The notes beneath the pieces were generated by a model. That model was not told the origin of the DNA. It ran no database searches and was given only the letters and a program-made list of their open reading frames with translations. Positions 8,906 to 58,960 of a stretch of 64,000 bases of DNA are shown here, piece after piece. The translations under genes were made by a program, and so were the position numbers. The stretch spans positions 67,001 to 131,000 of the forward strand of contig JBAMJV010003291.1 of the NCBI GenBank assembly GCA_037951105.1. Reading direction: 5' to 3'. The first letter of the stretch is position 1, and every line of letters begins with the position of its first letter. The stretch is from Echinarachnius parma (Eukaryota; Echinodermata; Echinoidea; Clypeasteroida; Echinarachniidae).

Positions 8906-9116
8906 TCAATCTACGCTCTGCTGCGAAGACCCCATGCAGTTCTTGAGACCCGCCGACAGGCTGGCCATGGAGAGCGCTGGCGTGGATTCCTGCAGCTGAT
9001 ACCATTGGGAGATGGGTTTGCGGGGGTTGGTAAGCATGTCCGCCCAGTGCGTCGCGCCCTGCGCCGGGGCGTTGGGCCCGACCTCGCACACACCGATCAG
9101 TTCGCTGTGACCAACC
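8906..9116 (-). CDS. SYT: synaptotagmin last coding exon: C-terminal C2B and stop
   Basis: A 211-base exon, phase 2 in, ending with TGA at 8908-8906. The acceptor has a strong pyrimidine tract (TTCCTATTCTACCTCTGCAG|G). It encodes 69 residues beginning VGHSELIGVCEVGPNAP, then THWADMLTNPRKPISQWYQL, the usual C2B end with the final helix and the WHXL-like motif (here WYQL), then a 27-residue tail of low similarity. The position of the last C2B calcium ligand in Syt1 is glutamate here (HSE), as remembered for the vertebrate Syt3/6/9/10 group. No clear polyadenylation signal was identified just downstream, so the 3' UTR end is unknown. Confidence 0.94.
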
Positions 9117-9924: not shown

Positions 9925-10036
9925 TTGGGTGATTTCAAGTATGGTGTTTAAGGCCGGTGTTAGTGTTTATTACACACAAACACCAGTTTGATAAACACTA
10001 ACACCAGCCCTAAACACCATACTTGAAATCACCCAA
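9925..10036. mobile_element. 112-bp hairpin element (copy 1)
   Basis: A near-perfect hairpin: ttgggtgatttcaagtatgg at the left and ccatacttgaaatcacccaa at the right. Arms are about 48 bases and the loop contains cacacaaacaccag. Two further copies lie at 13892-14118. Size and structure fit a MITE; such hairpins may also be processed to small RNAs. Confidence 0.82.
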
Positions 10037-13891: not shown

Positions 13892-14118
13892 CAATGGGTG
13901 ATTTAAAGTATGGTGTTTAGGGCTGGTGTTAGTGTTTATCAAACTGGTGTTTGTGTGTAATAAACACTAACACCGGCCTTAAACACCATACTTGAAATCA
14001 CCCATTGGGTGATTTCAAGTATGGTGTTTAGGGCTGGTGTTAGTGTTTATAAAACTGGCGTTTGTGTGTAATAAACACTAACACCGGCCTTAAACACCAT
14101 ACTTGAAATCACCCATTG
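13892..14118. mobile_element. two overlapping copies of the 112-bp hairpin element (copies 2 and 3)
   Basis: The first hairpin runs 13892-14007 and the second 14004-14118. They meet at cacccattgggtg, where the end of one is also the start of the next. Each has arms gggtgatttcaagtatggtg / caccatacttgaaatcaccc. Sequences are nearly identical to each other and to 9925-10036, so the duplication is recent. Confidence 0.85.
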
Positions 14119-19080: not shown

Positions 19081-20547
19081 CATAGGCGCCGGAAGTGGGG
19101 GGGCAGGGGGGGCGGCCGCCCCCCCAATCCAAAAAGTGGGGGGGCAAAACGCGTTTTTGCCCCCCCAAAAAGCCCCCCCCCCCTCAAAAAAAAGGAAGAA
19201 AAAAGAAAGAAAGAAAGAAAAAGGAAAAGAACAAATTAAATGTATCAGCCAATACTTGTTAATTCTAACGTTTAAAAACTGAGTTATTCATCCATTTAAA
19301 ATTTTCGCTGCGCGCTTCGCGCGCAAACAAATTATCTCAGTTTGTTGTGTAACTTGCATTTGATACGTCTGGGGTGGGTTTTTCTGTACCAGTCCACGTA
19401 CTTCCTGTGTAGGATGTTATTGCTCTGCTGTTTGTGTGACGTGCACCAAATCGCACCATTACAAGTAAATAAATGCAAAATCTTCCCCGTGGGAGGGAGA
19501 TACCCCCTCCCAAACCCTCCCCCTCTGGCTCTGCCCCAGCCCTCGGTCGCTTCGCTCCCTCGGGACTCATTTTTAGTTGTAAGCTATGATGTTGGATCAT
19601 ACAAATGTGGCATATGGTTTATGTTTTTGTATGCACCATATTGCACCATTTCAAGTATATACAGGCCAAATCTTCCCCGTGGGAGGGGGATACCCCCTCC
19701 CAACCCCCTGGCTCTGCCCCAGCCCTCGGTCACTTCGCTACCTCGGGACTCATTTTTAGCTGAAAGTTATGTTGTTGGATCATACATAATGTGGCATATG
19801 GTTTATGTTTTATGCACCAGATTGCACCATTTCTAGTATAAAAATGCAAAATCTTCCCCGTGGGAGGGGGATACCCCCTCCCAAACCCTCCCCCTCTGGC
19901 TCTGCACCAGCCCTCGGTCGCTTCGCTCCCTCAGGACTCATTTTTAGTTGTAAGCTATGATGTTGGATCATATACAAATGTGGCATATGGTTTATGTTTT
20001 TATGCCCCAGATTGCACCATTTCTAGTATAAAAATGCAAAATCTTCCCCGTGGGAGGGGGATACCCCCTCCCAAACCCTCCCCCTCTGGCTCTGCCCCAG
20101 CCCTCGGTCGCTTCGCTCCCTCAGGACTCATTTTTAGTTGTAAGCTATGATGTTGGATCATATACAAATGTGGCATATGGTTTATGTTTTTATGCCCCAG
20201 ATTGCATCATTTCAAGTATAAAAATGCAAAATCTTCCCCGTGGGAGGGGGATACCCCCTCCCAAACCCTCCCCCCTCTGGCTCTTCCACAGCCCTCGGTC
20301 GCTTCGCTCCCTCAGGAATCATTTTTGGCTGTAAGCTATGTTGTTGGATCATGTTTTTATGCACCAGATTGCACAATTTCAAGTCAAAAAATGCAAAAGC
20401 TCCCTTGACCGTGGGAGGGGGGGGGGGGGGGGGGGGGGGGGGTTGGCAACCCTGTGAGTGTGGTCGGGCAAGAGCCCCTAAACACATAAATCGTGAGCCC
20501 CCTTCGGGTTTTGCCCCCCCAATCCAAAACTGCTTCCGGCGCGCCTG
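19081..20547. mobile_element. hAT-like element with 8-bp target duplication and internal 190-bp array
   Basis: The element is bounded by perfect direct repeats TTGGTGAT at 19073-19080 and 20548-20555, the 8-bp duplication typical of hAT transposases. Ends are CATAGGCGCCGGAAG and CTTCCGGCGCGCCTG. The subterminal parts are G/C runs (19098-19190 and 20415-20445). The middle is an array of about five units of 181-190 bp starting near 19481, 19671, 19852, 20042 and 20232, each with tcttccccgtgggaggg and cctcggtcgcttcgctccct. Open frames through the array (Pro/Ser-rich) are repeat-made. No transposase is present. Confidence 0.85.
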
Positions 20548-22018: not shown

Positions 22019-22190
22019 CAATCGTAGTCGACGACGGCGATGATGAGGCATATGTTCTCCATGCTGTCGGGCGCGACGTCGAATACCATGGCCTCGTTGT
22101 ACACGGGGTTGAGCGTGTTCTTCTTCACTGTCGTCTTCTTCTTCTTCATCCTCTTCCCCTGCGACATCAGTGAGATTTTCACGTAAGGAT
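22019..22190 (-). CDS. SYT: synaptotagmin exon: central C2B
   Basis: A 172-base exon entered in phase 1 (split aspartate codon) and left in phase 2. The acceptor follows a T-rich tract (TTTTTTTTAATACAG|AT) and the donor is GATTG|GTAAAT. It encodes PYVKISLMSQG, then the lysine-rich strand KRMKKKKTTVKKN, the NPVYNEA motif, and the second calcium loop core VVDYD. The lysine-rich strand is the known C2B site for PIP2, SNARE and AP-2 binding. The residue after DYD is built across the splice site as TG|G, tryptophan, where the vertebrate group usually has arginine or lysine. Confidence 0.94.
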
Positions 22191-22439
22191 CTGTATTAAA
22201 AAAAAGGTAAAAGACTCTCTTTAATCTTTTCATCGAAATCATTTTTATAATGCCCCCTCTTGTAGCTCATCCCCTAGTCGATATCGTTGTCATCAATGTT
22301 TTTTTTTTTTATATATTATTCTATTTCTCCTTCATCCACTTTTCTCGCGACATCAGTGATATTTTCACGAAATGATATGTACCAAAAACAAGTAAAAGAC
22401 TATTATCTCTGTTATTTCATTGAAATAATGAACGTGATA

Positions 22440-22457: not shown

Positions 22458-22566
22458 CTTCCTCACCCTTTTATTTGTCATCATTATCATCGATGTTTTC
22501 TTCTTCTTGTTCATATCCAAACATCTTTCATATTCGTTATTGAGTACACGAATGAAACAAGTCCCG

Positions 22567-31639: not shown

Positions 31640-31835
31640 GAGTGTATACCGAGACGGACCAGCGATTGTGACAAGTGTTTGACAAGTTCTAACATCGGGA
31701 AACTGACCAGACATATATGATATAATTGACAATGAACAAAGAAAATCGAGTTTCCCCACCGGATTCGGACCCGAGACCTCTTGATTGCTAGACCAGTACT
31801 CTACCAACTGAGCTAGAAAGCCCTCGTACTGGTTG
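31640..31835 (-). mobile_element. tRNA-derived repeat, AGC-anticodon-like (copy A)
   Basis: On the minus strand a tRNA-like head starts ggctttctagctcagttggt (A box) and ends gggtccgaatccggtg (B box), with ctagcaa at the anticodon loop. The anticodon stem does not pair well, so a working tRNA is unlikely. Similarity to copy B extends past the tRNA head in both directions (aacaaccag before; catatatgtctggtcag after), as in a SINE. Confidence 0.65.
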
Positions 31836-31984
31836 TTCGTTCTTGAAACTTTTGTCAATGCTCATGATTGTCAGAAGCTATTGTAAACCCGACACAAGCC
31901 TTGGCAAACCCGAAATATAACTAACAAACTTGAGGATATGTGCGAGGGATCACCGAAGTGATGCAGCTTTTGTATATTTTCTTT

Positions 31985-32140
31985 GTCAATCATAGGGCAA
32001 ACTGTCTAGAAATACATGGTATAAATTAATATGAGCACATAAAACGTGCCTTCACGGGAATGGAACCCGTGACCTCCGGATTGCTAGAACGGTGCTCTAC
32101 CAGGTGAGCTAGAAAGCTCTTGTGGTGGTTGTCCGTCCCT
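31985..32140 (-). mobile_element. tRNA-derived repeat, AGC-anticodon-like (copy B)
   Basis: Minus strand: gagctttctagctcacctgg (A box), ctagcaa at the loop and cgggttccattcccgtg (T arm, well paired). The anticodon stem has two mismatches. Homologous to copy A about 300 bp away in the same orientation, including non-tRNA flanks. Confidence 0.65.
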
Positions 32141-46201: not shown

Positions 46202-46322
46202 CTGAGGCACCGGTGATGTCCATGGCTTTGAGGTTCCTCGCCTTGATGACCGTCAGCGTTAACCTACAGGCCGTCGGGAGATAGTTTAGCGAGAACATCA
46301 CCTCACCTAGATCCGCCTTCTC
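46202..46322 (-). CDS. SYT: synaptotagmin exon: first part of C2B (functional copy)
   Basis: A 121-base exon, phase 0 in and phase 1 out, encoding 40 residues from [20 protein letters not shown] to [10 protein letters not shown]. This is beta strands 1-2 and the first half of calcium loop 1 of C2B. It holds the first aspartate ligand in AMD; the second is made by the split codon G|AT at the junction with the next exon, giving ASDPYVK. The acceptor is CCCACAG|GAG and the donor is CTCAG|GTAAGA. It is the last in transcription order of five tandem copies and the only one with an intact donor and the ITGAS end, so it is taken as the working exon. Confidence 0.93.
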
Positions 46323-46410
46323 CTGTGGGTTTAGAGTTTCAAATCAGCTAGAAATTAGATCAGAGTTATGTTTAACGGATCACTCTAAAAACTACAACAA
46401 CAGCAGCAGC

Positions 46411-47150
46411 CCGTTGATGTCCATCGGTTTGAGGTTCATCGCCTCGATGACCGTCAGCGTTAACCTACAGGCCGTCGGAAGATAGTTTAGTGAGAACATC
46501 ACTTCACCTAGAGCCGCCTTTTCCTGTGGATGAAGCGAATCAAATCAGCTAGAAATTAGATCAGATTTATGTTTAACGGATCACTCTAAAAACTACAACA
46601 ACAGCAGCAGCCCGTTGATGTCCATCGGTTTGAGGTTCATCGCCTCGATGACCGTCAGCGTTAACCTACAGGCCGTCGGGAGATAGTTTAGTGAGAACAT
46701 CACTTCACCTAGATCCGCCTTCTCCTGTGGATGAAGCGAATCAAATCAGCTAGAAATTAGATCAGATTTATGTTTAACGGATCACTCTAAAAACTACAAC
46801 AACAGCAGCAGCCCGTTGATGTCCATCGGTTTGAGGTTCATCGCCTCGATGACCGTCAGCGTTAACCTACAGGCCGTCGGAAGATAGTTTAGTGAGAACA
46901 TCACTTCACCTAGAGCCGCCTTTTCCTGTGGATGAAGCGAATCAAATCAGCTAGAAATTAGATCAGATTTATGTTTAACGGATCACGCTCAAAACTACAA
47001 TAACAACAATATCACCACCAACAACAACATCGGCAGCTCGTGGATGTCCATGGCTGTGAGGTTCCTCGCCTTGATAACCGTCAGCGTTAACCTACAGGCC
47101 GTCGGGAGATAGTTTAGTGAGAACATCACTACACCTAGATCAGCCTTCTC
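46411..47150 (-). pseudogene. four degenerate tandem copies of the first C2B exon
   Basis: Four extra copies of the first C2B exon lie in the intron between C2A and the working exon, at 47150-47040, 46925-46813, 46724-46612 and 46523-46411. Acceptor positions 46322, 46523, 46724 and 46925 are exactly 201 bp apart; the fifth is 225 bp away. Each keeps an acceptor (CCACAG|GA) and an open frame [18 protein letters not shown] in phase with the C2A exon. Each loses the end of the exon: after MDINGLL (copies 2-4) or MDIHELP (copy 5) the frame enters a triplet repeat and stops with no GT donor at the right place. Copies 2-4 share substitutions ([11 protein letters not shown]), so they were duplicated from one degenerate founder. 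They are pseudo-exons or possible alternative terminal exons. Confidence 0.88.
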
Positions 47151-47644
47151 CTGTGGATATAGAGTTTTAAATCGGATACACATGAGATAAGATTAAGATT
47201 TAACGGATCTCACTTACAACTACACCGACAACACCAATCTAAACAGCAAGCGAAACACACAACGACCATAATGACATAATGGACCATAACCTTCATTCAA
47301 CGTTCGCGTTTTTATCTGCGAGGTGTTGTTAATGCCCCTTTGAAAAAAAAAATTATAATATTGTTCCTCACTGCATGTAACCCCATACTTCAGTGCTAAT
47401 AAGGATATCACCTCTGTTTAATCAATCTCCCATAACTTTAATAGTATAAGGATTAGTGTACGATTAATGTACAATTCTAAATGTCTTATTACCATCCTTC
47501 TGAGTTGATCTTGTTTTGGTTGGCTCGTACTTAAGCTGCAATGAACCACTTTCTTGGCCGTTAAAAACCCTACCAGTGACACTGGTGTGCTGTTATTCAC
47601 ATTTGGATGAAAAACATACATGTTGAGGAAAACAAGTCTCTTAC

Positions 47645-48522
47645 CTGCGATGTGCCTTTCATGATATCCTCCACGTACTGCGTATCTTTACTAAGGTCCC
47701 TCGTCGTCACCAGACTGTTTATGTTGATCTCACCAATAAGGTCGTGTCTCGAGAACCTATCAAAGTCATAGACGGTGAACTTGAGTGTCTTAGATTCCAG
47801 ATCGTTGTATGGAATCTGAAAGGCAAAGCGCTCGTCGAAGATGGGGTCGCAGGTCTTCCTGTGAACTTTGGTCTGGTATTTCCGTTTCCGGTCTGGGCAC
47901 AGGTAAATCTTGATGTACGGGTCGGACGTCCCAGAGAAGTCCTTGGCGGGAAGGTCGATGGCGCGCTCGATGTTGACGTTTAGTGTTTCTGTTGCGTAGT
48001 CGTAAAAAAGGCTGAAGACGAGTCGACCACAGCTCGGTTTGGTTCCATTCGTCTTGCATTTCTCTTTGGATTCTTGCCGGTACAGCTCTGGGCGCAAGGT
48101 TCCGATCAGATCCGTTTGGTCCTTGCGCGTTGTGTTGATATTCTTGACGCTGAACTCTACGTTGGCCAGATTGAGTTGTAGGGACAGCTGACGTTGCTGC
48201 TTGAACGCCTCTTGTCGTATCCTCTGGGGCAGGAGCGGAACTGTCGCCTGACGGGGCAGGGGCTTGATAGGGCTGGGCCTCCCCGAGCTAGGTCGACTGG
48301 CGGTGGGCGACCCATCACGACTCGGGAACATACTATCGACGTCGGAGTCAGAGTCGTAATCGTAGCTGGTCAGTACCTTACGCTGAACGATAAGGGAGTC
48401 GTTCCGCTCTGGCAACAGGGTCTTGCGCTTCTTCGTGCAGTAGAGAGTGATGAAGGCTATCAGCAGAACCAGAGCTGATAAGGAGATAGGAATCGCGATG
48501 GCCTCGAGAGGAAAAATCCGAC
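47645..48522 (-). CDS. SYT: synaptotagmin exon: transmembrane segment, linker and C2A domain
   Basis: An 878-base exon giving 292 codons after a split codon (phase 1 in, phase 0 out). The acceptor lies in a T-rich tract ending TGTATTAG and the donor is CAG|GTAAGAG. Residues 5-28 of the exon form a hydrophobic helix (transmembrane) followed by CTKKRK, a basic stop-transfer with one cysteine. Residues 54-93 are acidic, then Ser/Pro-rich. C2A runs from about residue 164 to 292. All calcium-loop ligands expected from Syt1 are present: D194, D200, D252, D254, S257 and D260, the last four within YDFDRFSRHD. Upstream of C2A is GTLRPELYRQES, matching the PELYK-type motif typical of the Syt3/6/9/10 group. 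C2A therefore looks calcium-competent. The initiating exon with the luminal end was not found upstream. Confidence 0.95.
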
Positions 48523-51520
48523 CTAATACAGAAGACAAAAAAAGACAAAAGGAGACCATTCGGTTAATTCAAATAGTCTAAATACACTAGGACTGATGTT
48601 TTGTTGTCAATATTTTCTTTTTTCTGCGGTACAGGAAGACAAACTCGATCAATGAAATAATATCGATTCGAATGTCGAATGACTATTACTCGCATCAGGT
48701 GGGAAAGGCCGGCCTAGTGAAAACAAGGGGAAGAGAATCAGACATTTAATGTTAATTATACATTTGCATAATACAAAGAGATACTAATTTAAACCCGAAA
48801 AAAATAAAAACAAATCGTTGCGCAAGACGAGACGATGTCTACCATCATCACATCAGCAGAGTTGGTATTGATTGGATGGACAGGGAACATAAACCAGAAT
48901 TGGTACTGAGAGGGAAGGTCTTTAAAACGCATGGACATCAATACATTATAATGTCCCTTCGGCCTTAAAGCTCCATGTTCATTCTAAATGACGCCTGTTG
49001 TAACAGTCGTTAACTCATTTGATAGCCCGTCGTTCGTTCCTGATACAAAATACATCGCGGTCATCATCTGATTTTAAATAACAGTTTGCTTGTTTACGCT
49101 TCCCGCTCGATGTTTAGATTGGCTGCACATCAACTTTCATTCGAAATAACTCTTTGCAATTATTGCGAAATAGGCCTACAGAAAAGGGACATATTTTTAG
49201 CATGATTTATGATATACTTCTAGGCCGCCTACATAAATAAGATGACAACACAAAAAAGAAGCATACATAATATATGATTTAGCGTCTGTATTTATGCAAG
49301 GGTTTATACAACCATAAAATAGTAATACGACGTCTTAAATCCTTTACGCTTTAAGACAATTGCTCGCTCGTTGAACTGTTGAGTACGCGTGTATTTTATA
49401 AGATACGATGATTTATCTTAATGGATCCCTGAGGAATGTCTCGATAAATCACTCAACATGGTTTAACTCTTCACACGCGAACTGTGTGGAATAAAAAAAA
49501 TCCACTGACATAGGTCTGAATTCTTATCAGAGCGTTAAATTATAATCAAGCTTGGGGATGCTACTCTGCGGGTCGCGATATTTTCTTTTCCATGAACTTT
49601 TTGTCAGATTTCAGACTTTAGTGAAAACTCGGCATGATACATTTACTAAATGAACCGCTACTCACCATGTATTACATGTATTATGGCGAAAGAAAAGAAG
49701 AGTCATAAGAGGGGATCGAACCCATGATACCAAGTGTTGAAGTCCAGAGCGTAACCAATAAGGCCACGTAAACCGCTGATGGTCAGCATGGTCTCATTGT
49801 AATTATAACCCTCAAACTCAACCAAACATTAATCCTAGTTATGAATATTCATGAGTAGCCCACATCGTTGCTTATGAATAATTCATTAGGACAAAAAGTT
49901 CGTAGGGAAAAAAATTCGCGTGCGGGTCGCCATTTTTTAACTATACGCACTGCGTAACAGTGAGCCAATGTGTATTACGCACCGTGCGCAGGACGCACCA
50001 ACTCTGGATTTTGTTTTTATTATACGCATTTATGGGTTCGGTGGTTAGACTATGTCTATAGTTATCTAATCATGTTTAACCAGGGGTTAAAGTTGACCCA
50101 TTGTTGATTATTCGGGCATAATTATTATAATGTGCATTGAGATCTGCAAGACGACCCAATTGGCGTGGGAAGAGTTAATCCTAGTGGTCAATTAGTAACG
50201 TGATTACATTCGTCAACAGAGGTAAAGGATGACCAGTTAATTTGGCCACTGGGAATACAGGGCTTGCATCCAGGGCTGCGTTGATGATGTCTGGCACATT
50301 GCCAGCAGCGAAATTCATTAACCTGCTCCCTACAAGATGTTTGTACTTTCCAAGCTGCTTCACTCGTCCCTTGCACGTGTATGGCGCTATGTGCTACGGT
50401 ACTTACGATGTCTGTATAGAGGCATCTCTTTCTCTATAGCAATGTAACACACCGCTGGCCATTCGAATTATTTAAACTATTGTATAATTATGCCAATATG
50501 TATATATTATAAGTTATGTAATCATTTCGAGAACAATGCAAATCATCCCGCTTAAACAAAAAACACGACAATTATACCCACCAAAATGTTTTCATGATAC
50601 GTGTCAGATTTCGTTTCAACGTTAATATTTTTGGAATATTATGTTGGATTTTTTGTTTGAGATAGTGAAAAAACGCTGTATTAGTTGTTGCATATGAATG
50701 CGTTGCGAGGTATGTGTGTAGGGTTAGGGAGGAGGGGGTGGTTGGGTTGAATCGCTAAAAATCCAAAAGCTTACAAGGGATCCGACCCATGGACCCAAGT
50801 CACCCAATTCAAAGCGGCTTGCGCTGACGCGCTCGGAGGTGGGAGCCCCCTCAAAGAATGCCTGGCTACAACACTGAAAGCGAGGTGTATTTTACTCGCA
50901 CATATGAAGAGCTTAGTTCCCAAAAGCACTATATCCACTCGTTCAACTTTGGAGAAAAACCGGTTTTGTTGCAAAACCTTGTACAAATGCCGATATGGGA
51001 ATAAAACAATGAATCGTTCCATATTTTTGATTTTGATTGAATACTAATTATGTCCTTAAATTTATATTTCTAGAAAGCTACGTAGCTCATTTATGTACTG
51101 ATATCGTTAACTCATTTTGTATGGAAAGCTGATTGAACGCCTTTTTGGAACTAAAGCGTCTCAGATATACAATATGTATTAGTCTTCCCAAGAGTGGCAG
51201 AACGTGCCCGGGTACATCACTGATTTCGTAATCAAGTTACTCTATATTATTGAAGAATTCGGTTTATGTGGGCTAATTGCCCCCTATGCCCAGATCAACA
51301 TTCTTGGCAGCCGTCCCACGTGTCACATTTAACGGGAAAACGGGTCAACGTAATCATGTAAACTGTCGGCAGAGCTACGTGGCGCTAGCGCAAAGGGCAA
51401 GACATTTCTGAACAAAGACTACAGCTAGTATCTTATGGCATTCAAATTTCAAAATTCGGAATTCGGTATTTTTTTATATCATAACCAATGTGACTGATAC
51501 GAGTACATCATGTTCCCTAC
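48523..51520. other. region upstream of the transmembrane/C2A exon
   Basis: Either an intron or the 5' region of the synaptotagmin gene. Minus-strand bases 49785-49703 resemble a tRNA head (ggttcgatcccc B box; gtggccttattggttacgc A box). A minus-strand frame at 50363-50181 has no recognised domain. No first exon was identified. Confidence 0.4.
49703..49785 (-). mobile_element. tRNA-like sequence
   Basis: Minus strand: A-box-like cgtggccttattggttacgc and the near-consensus B box gggttcgatcccc, separated by a spacer usual for a tRNA. Pairing in the anticodon arm is partial (ctctggacttcaacac). A tRNA pseudogene or SINE head is more likely than a working tRNA. Confidence 0.45.
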
Positions 51521-58029: not shown

Positions 58030-58960
58030 TCGTGTGCAATCTGCACGAGTCCCAGCAGTAGGTAAGATCATTCAACATTGTGCAAATATCCTGTTACATA
58101 TTACTATTATGATGATATTATTGTCAGCGTCAACAAACCAACATTCATGTGTTATACTGAAGCAAGACAATTCTTTATTATCTTAATTTGATTTCAAATG
58201 ACCCTACCTGGCAATTGCTCGCATGCAATATACACGCACGCCCTCGGGGTTGGGAAGATCATTGAACATTGTGCAAATACCCGGTTGAAAATGTCCGAGG
58301 AGATTATTGTCGGCGAGACATGTTAATTTCAACAAACCAACACTCATGTACTGAATCAAGAATGGTGTAATGTACTCCCTATAAAATCGAAAGTCAGCCA
58401 TGCCTCGGAATTTCTCTCATAAATGCAAAATATCACGAGCCCTACCAGAGGGGAAGACTATTCGACATTGTGCAAATACCCGGTTGCACATTTTTGTAGG
58501 ATATAATCGTCAGCGAGACATTCTAATTTCAACGAACCAACACTCATGTACTGAATCAAGAATGGTGTAATGTACTCCCTATAAAATCGAAAGTCAGCCA
58601 TGCCTCGGAATTTCTCTCATAAATGCAAAATATCACGAGCCCTACCAGAGGGGAAGACTATTCGACATTGTGCAAATACCCGGTTGTACATTTTTGTAGG
58701 ATATAATCGTCAGCGAGACATTCTAATTTCAACAAACCAACACTCATGTACTGAATCAAGAAAAATATATAATGTACTCTCTCTATAAAATCGAAAGTCA
58801 TCCATGCCTCGGAATTGCTCTCAATAATGCAACATAGCACGAGCCCTACCAGAAGGGAAGAATAGTCAACATTCTGCAAACAACCTGTTGCAATGTACCG
58901 TATAGGGTATACGAATGGCAGCGAGACATTCTAATTGCGTTGCAACATAAATGCACTGAT
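58030..58960. repeat. tandem array of 200-bp units
   Basis: cactcatgtactgaatcaag occurs at 58341, 58541 and 58741, exactly 200 bp apart. More divergent units flank these (acattcatgtgttatactg near 58140; a left half at 58050; a decayed unit to 58960). Each unit has attgtgcaaatacccggttg and cgaaagtcagccatgcctcgg. Minus-strand frames of about 60 codons repeat with the unit but differ in stops. Confidence 0.85.

Follow-up and report, generated by a model that had tools for sequence, protein, structure and literature searches.

Tandem truncated copies of a synaptotagmin exon edge, with similar exon-boundary arrays at other genes of the same genome

The window considered here, a stretch of 64,000 nucleotides, carries on its minus strand a gene that we class, partly on PDB matches, as a synaptotagmin of the Syt3/6/9/10 type. 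An upstream exon (47645..48529, minus strand, 5' limit approximate) encodes the transmembrane segment and C2A, as judged from its open frame, a single Pfam C2 domain (E=3e-29) and best PDB matches to synaptotagmin-1 and -3, and is followed after 47645 by the donor CAG|GTAAGA (score 7.25). The first C2B exon lies at 46202..46322 (minus strand; 121 nt, EKADLGEV...MDITGAS, donor CAG|GTAAGA), and the C2B exon that follows it (DPYVKISLMS...VVDYD) some 24 kb farther downstream at 22019..22190 (minus strand), with an acceptor scoring 5.34 and a donor, TG|GTAAAT, placed by eye. The last coding exon (VGHSELIGVCEVG...WYQLQE...SVD stop), its ends also placed by eye, occupies 8906..9116 (minus strand) and overlaps none of the 34 local duplicate pairs of the window.

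The intron before the first C2B exon holds a tandem array (46210..47236, minus strand, most of the intact exon included) that was delimited by TRF (score 1431), a repeat search and self-BLAST (46210-47008 against 46411-47233 at 89.6% identity). Five copies of the exon start, B to F, run head to tail on the minus strand, with first exonic bases at 47150, 46925, 46724, 46523 and 46322, spacings in transcript order of 225, 201, 201 and 201 bp, CCACAG before each, and a common frame that is open after the C2A exon ending at 47645. Copy B (47034..47150), the first in the transcript, has an acceptor and no donor and reads 51 codons to a stop, and copies C (46810..46925), D (46609..46724) and E (46408..46523), likewise truncated, each read 43 codons to a TAG, these counts being taken from the translations and the 3' limits of all four having been set by eye. 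The ITGAS end and the CAG|GTAAGA donor are found only in copy F, the intact exon at 46322-46202. An earlier note on this DNA had described five exon starts, four with acceptors 201 bp apart and a fifth at 47150, all in the same open phase after the C2A exon, the last alone with an ITGAS end and a donor, and had reckoned that use of an upstream copy would add about 45 residues; the description was borne out, with 225 bp as the spacing to copy B, and the estimate was fair.

Alignment resolves the repeat unit into the 3' end of the intron (about 85-110 nt) and the first 111-116 nt of the exon, so that each unit spans the boundary. All four truncated copies part from the exon near a common point, GACATCnnCG, a few codons short of the donor, and continue as related intron sequence of the form GCTGC...GTTGT...TAG. 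Because the breakpoint of the unit falls inside the exon, the upstream copies are donorless and the intact exon stands last, and a single duplication with an in-exon right breakpoint, followed by expansion, makes four separate donor losses unnecessary. The four copies do therefore stand without donors, as had been noted, but donors lost one by one are not the reason, since the unit ends inside the exon. The array is far beyond chance: 4 of the 34 local duplicate pairs in the window derive from it, and each of three block-shuffled windows contained none.

Exchange among the copies is visible in their mosaic pattern of identity. Copies C and E are identical over the first 111 exon-derived nucleotides and copies D and E over the 80 intron nucleotides before the acceptor, and copy D differs from copy F at 6 of 25 positions beside the acceptor and at 1 of 55 farther upstream. 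The outer intron flank of copy B differs from the other copies at 19-22 of 80 positions and its exon part at 8-12 of 111, a divergent outer flank being what is expected at the edge of an array; on these pairwise counts, the inner units have been homogenised with the array edge excluded. An excess of intron over exon change in copy B could also be read as constraint on its exon part (8/111 against 19/80 in comparison with F; Fisher p=0.0015), a reading that was set aside by judgement in favour of homogenisation with the outer flank excluded, since the inner units show mosaic exchange.

Of 37 codons compared across the copies, 12 vary. The substitutions K27E, R29M, A33P and T37N are common to copies 2-4 and occur in neither copy 1 nor copy 5 (at position 37 copy B has H), and the earlier note's suggestions of a single degenerate unit that had spread, and of intronic decay products, fit this evidence. 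Parsimony polarised by hand, with codon 37 excluded as ambiguous, assigned about seven amino-acid and four silent changes to the truncated copies and none and two, respectively, to copy F. The amino-acid share of changes in the truncated copies is thus 0.64, against 0.73 expected without constraint, 73% of the possible single changes in F being amino-acid changes. Copy F accordingly looks constrained and the truncated copies do not, although the numbers are small and relaxed constraint on the latter is no more than suggested by them.

The same architecture occurs at the next exon of this gene, in synaptotagmin paralogues, in a PKC-like gene, and in proteasome and Rab genes. An older truncated copy of the next C2B exon (FVKISLMSREKWMKEK*; 22325..22401, minus strand) lies 186 bp upstream of it, 82% identical and with the acceptor AG lost, so that the gene holds two such arrays; a third, more decayed copy may sit near 22487-22514. 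Three further synaptotagmin loci, found through being synaptotagmins, were inspected. In the L021 paralogue (contig C11943) the homologous exon edge is present three times, with the donor in the last copy, and there is also a duplicate of the next exon's edge at 77-bp spacing; by eye, the middle copy there (L021 4204-4848) is broken by an inverted-repeat element of about 200 bp. The Syt1-like paralogue L022 (C11063, 2500-8400) bears, again by eye, arrays at several exon edges and of both 5' and 3' types: a C2B exon and the last exon are preceded by truncated copies, and two C2A exons are followed by copies whose ends resemble donors. At L024 (C3666) a C2A exon has a truncated upstream copy.

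A wider sample comprised 30 loci from 107 C2-domain matches, the window gene and its paralogues among them, and all 22 proteasome matches, and was scored for a local direct duplicate within 1.2 kb that overlapped the exon match, with equal-length flank segments as control. Such a duplicate overlapped 20 of the 52 exon matches (8/30 C2, 12/22 proteasome) and 21.8% and 24.2% of the C2 and proteasome flank segments, respectively. Proteasome exons therefore stood above their flanks (12/22 against 24.2%, p=0.002), whereas C2 exons showed no excess over theirs (8/30 against 21.8%, p=0.32). When haplotigs, sister copies or dead copies (L031, L032, L041, L045, L046, L069 and L078) were omitted, 16 of 45 matches remained positive (p=0.04 against 23%), these matches being not fully independent. 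Targeting of duplications to exons was considered and is not claimed here, given the lack of excess at C2 exons and the longer detectability of an exon-copy pair, in which divergence is mainly on one side. Local duplicates cover 11.6% of the window, and exon edges are thus probably struck as part of a general duplication process.

At the 20 loci with an exon-overlapping duplicate, the geometry was upstream (5') only in ten, downstream (3') only in five, both in one, unlabelled in three and mixed in one, exon ends having been assigned by script and some of them being rough; the locus scored as mixed is a dead copy of an exon that belongs to another locus. Peptide searches were run at nine of the 20. 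Two proteasome exons reproduce the arrangement of the window array, with three upstream copies at L065 and at least five at L075, each copy truncated and the intact exon last. Among 150 scored of 374 candidates in a Ras search, contig C7135 gave three matches 172 and 178 bp apart, by eye two short and the last longest. No clear frame preference emerged by hand count, the shortest listed period being divisible by 3 at 10 of the 20 loci, three of which are haplotigs of one gene.

At one other locus, array length appears to differ between haplotypes. Three haplotig-like contigs (L044, L045 and L046) of a putative PKC-like gene share 5' flanks 94.6-96.3% identical and have arrays of differing length, L044 being about 490 bp longer than L045, close to three 171-bp units, with a simple repeat adjoining the array. 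L044 has three upstream exon copies and a fragment, L045 a single copy, and L046 one copy and a fragment. The haplotig pairs L016/L017 and L018/L019 have local arrays in common; that of L018/L019 includes a C2B-end exon also seen in L025, and that of L016/L017 is taken only as a local array, whether or not it adjoins an exon. Near-identical gene matches pair contigs C3666/C7208, C6020/C7222, C523/C5562 and C2977/C3355, apparently uncollapsed haplotypes, and alignment covered two such pairs. Across 169 local pairs from L028-L079, to which one array can contribute several, the distribution of distances is highest at 125-225 bp and has additional maxima around 300-375 and 475 bp; a link of the repeat period to nucleosome spacing is speculation.

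Boundary repeats of this form have been named in amphioxus, where minisatellites at exon-intron boundaries of Adh3 and of the globin genes BflGb6 and BflGb9 are called mirages; in BflGb6 the 3' intron end and a 5' part of the exon are repeated in units of 150-160 bp (excerpts of PMC3087553). The same excerpts describe 5' and 3' boundary types, homogenised inner units with the edges excluded, unit numbers that vary by haplotype, and RT-PCR that suggested undisturbed, regular splicing. The synaptotagmin array resembles them in its boundary-spanning unit (the 3' end of the intron together with about 115 nt from exon F), in the intact exon at one end, copy F alone having the exon end and donor, and in the homogenisation of inner units with edge exclusion. 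It differs from what is described there in gene, in unit length (201/225 bp), and in the occurrence of such arrays in several unrelated genes of one genome (PMC3087553, in part). Internal tandem repeats at exon-intron boundaries are likewise reported for human genes in segmental duplications, their number varying between paralogues, and there alternative splicing is possible (PMC2812944, partial text). The human repeats came to light by way of variable exons, and some of them form novel introns and alternative transcripts, unlike the truncated, donorless copies in an existing intron seen here, and in view of them neutrality is not automatic (same partial text). Boundary repeats are not confined to amphioxus.

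By far the best explanation is, in our view, that the array is a mirage-type minisatellite made by exon-edge duplications, the upstream copies being neutral, decaying and removed with the intron. A segment across the 5' boundary of the first C2B exon would have been tandemly duplicated repeatedly, each duplication, with its right-hand breakpoint inside the exon, yielding a truncated intron-side copy with an acceptor and no donor. The last copy would have remained attached to the remainder of the exon and been kept by selection, and the others would have expanded, exchanged sequence with one another and decayed as intron. The spliceosome would then join 47645 to 46322 and the truncated copies would leave with the intron, since, of the five acceptors, that of copy F alone has a U1 site at exon distance and exon definition would select it. 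The truncated copies are thus most likely neutral and spliced out, with exon definition as the presumed cause.

Splice-site strengths argue to the contrary. A generic acceptor matrix gives 5.4, 6.0 and 5.4 bits for the acceptors of copies C, D and E and 1.24 for that of copy B, all four above the real site of copy F at 0.08, which counts against the neutral reading. No donor scoring above 2 was found in copies B-E with the same kind of matrix. Because a decoy copy is without a donor of its own, its acceptor's most natural partner would be the real donor at 46202 rather than the end of a terminal exon, and the composite exon so formed, 322, 523, 724 or 949 nt long, would contain an in-frame stop far ahead of the junction that follows. 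A transcript of this kind would be expected to be an NMD substrate; the C2A-only membrane protein that the earlier note had derived from use of an upstream copy is not the expected product.

It could be, then, that some transcripts join a decoy acceptor to the donor at 46202 and that the stop-containing exon of 322-949 nt tunes the level of synaptotagmin through NMD. Beyond the acceptor ranking, this idea has in its favour the strong C2A donor, the fact that every copy is in frame with its stop far upstream of the next junction, and the altered splicing that boundary repeats can bring about in human duplicated genes (PMC2812944, in the portion available). The ranking itself rests on a generic matrix, though, and like arrays occur in proteasome genes, constraint on the truncated copies is not visible, and in amphioxus the RT-PCR suggested regular splicing (PMC3087553, excerpted). 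We regard a regulatory role of this sort as unlikely; since the decoy acceptors outscore the real one, an extended exon that triggers NMD may be used at a low level. The decoy exons in retained introns of OGT and other genes invite comparison, being intronic exon-like sequences with an acceptor that would add a stop codon, and in the OGT case the decoy has 5' splice sites whose mutation or blocking restores constitutive splicing (PMC12017769, seen in part). A decoy exon in that sense requires both 3' and 5' splice sites, and was rejected as an identity for copies B-E on the donor scores given above.

Acceptors at eight other loci, placed by eye and with L079 set aside, behave in a comparable manner. 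The AG is retained in 15 of 18 copies, somewhat above the proportion of about 0.67 that we estimate from a median pair identity of 82%, a further point against neutrality. Within the window, all four truncated copies of the first C2B exon still have it, and the copy of the exon that follows does not. In 9 of the 18 copies, three of the loci being haplotigs of one gene, the acceptor score equals or exceeds that of the intact exon. If intact exons are used at these loci, good acceptors are bypassed there too, and the bypass is not peculiar to this gene. A broader proposition, which we consider unlikely, is that a large share of the exons of this genome carry tandem truncated edge copies, often with acceptors at least as good as the real one, that the spliceosome passes over them as only the last copy has a donor, and that partial failure at some genes, this synaptotagmin included, may give stop-containing extended exons, NMD and expression lowered according to array length and allele.

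An artefact of assembly is very unlikely. Tandem repeats are easily misassembled, the BflGb6 array having been aberrantly assembled in the amphioxus draft (PMC3087553, excerpt), copies C and E show no difference over 111 nt, and DNA and protein searches of the assembly revealed no second haplotig of the window locus with which to compare them; copies B, D and F nevertheless differ from one another in sequence, and arrays of this class are common to haplotig pairs at other loci. In the DNA search of the 1.2 Gb assembly the array was found at one place among 40 scored of 60 candidates, the other 39 scored matches being short and confined to the last part of the query, which lies in the following intron. 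Close protein matches to these exons (83-98% identity) were on this contig alone, the next best reaching at most 62-65%.

That a copy serves as a 3' terminal exon, with a C2A-only membrane protein as the result, is extremely improbable, even though the frames stay open after the C2A exon for 43-51 codons and the acceptors are intact. Neither AATAAA nor ATTAAA occurs between 47150 and 46202, the weak variant CATAAA is present three times (46973, 46772 and 46571), and the tails beyond the exon part are intron-derived. Together with the donor scores, the absence of visible constraint and the same architecture in proteasome genes, this leaves the earlier proposal of poison or terminal exons unsupported, and terminal-exon use in particular unlikely. 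Tandemly duplicated mutually exclusive exons are homologous in-frame copies between shared neighbours, and descent of the array from complete C2B exons of this type whose donors were lost later has next to nothing to recommend it beyond the general point that tandem, near-identical, in-frame copies are their usual raw material, the four copies departing from the exon at about one place and none keeping its 3' end. As a functioning array of that type the locus was also rejected, at least two complete exons with both splice sites being required and only one of the five copies being complete, in spite of the likeness in tandem, homologous, in-frame arrangement.

Taken alone, this array is a neutral-looking oddity of an already described kind. 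Less expected is the frequency of the phenomenon, local duplicates having overlapped 20 of the 52 exon matches that were sampled from two gene families, and the animal appears to lie outside the group in which mirages were named. Its mitochondrial codons fit an ambulacrarian rather than a cephalochordate origin: COI on contig C14600 has TGA for Trp, ATA at conserved Ile, AGA for Ser, a single internal AAA at a conserved Asn and no AGG, and COII has three AAA codons, one of them at a probable Asn position; the rarity of AAA and the lack of AGG hint at a hemichordate. Literature searches on exon-boundary repeats and on hemichordate tandem or exon duplications, in mostly open literature, brought no hemichordate report of such arrays that we recognised. 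Near-identical acceptors in series, of which one has a donor, provide a ready system for testing exon definition and first-come choice among splice sites. The arrays can mislead gene prediction, as family searches match dead copies (for example L078), and they are relevant to the idea that new introns are seeded by duplications of boundaries. Drosophila introns probably gained by tandem duplication inside coding sequence have been reported (PMC2891723, in part), and in the sole a partial non-functional exon of dmrt1 lies within a 10.4-kb internal duplication (PMC7605655, in part).

Several smaller features of the window deserve mention. A synonymous change at 46307, by which exon F reads GAG against GAA in copies C, D and E, creates a donor-like TAG|GTGAGG of 5.97 bits that lies 16 nt inside the exon. 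The stretches 19442-20352 and 58058-58936 hold further tandem arrays, with periods of about 190-200 bp, the period class of the exon array, and neither is at a known exon. A local duplicate pair (31693-31840 and 31991-32136, 74%) has in one half a tRNA (32046-32118), the sole Rfam match of the window. On the minus strand at 467-880, an open frame resembles by eye a fragment of a non-LTR reverse transcriptase, and a palindromic MITE-like sequence forms a tandem pair at 13895-14118, with a single copy at about 9950-10030.
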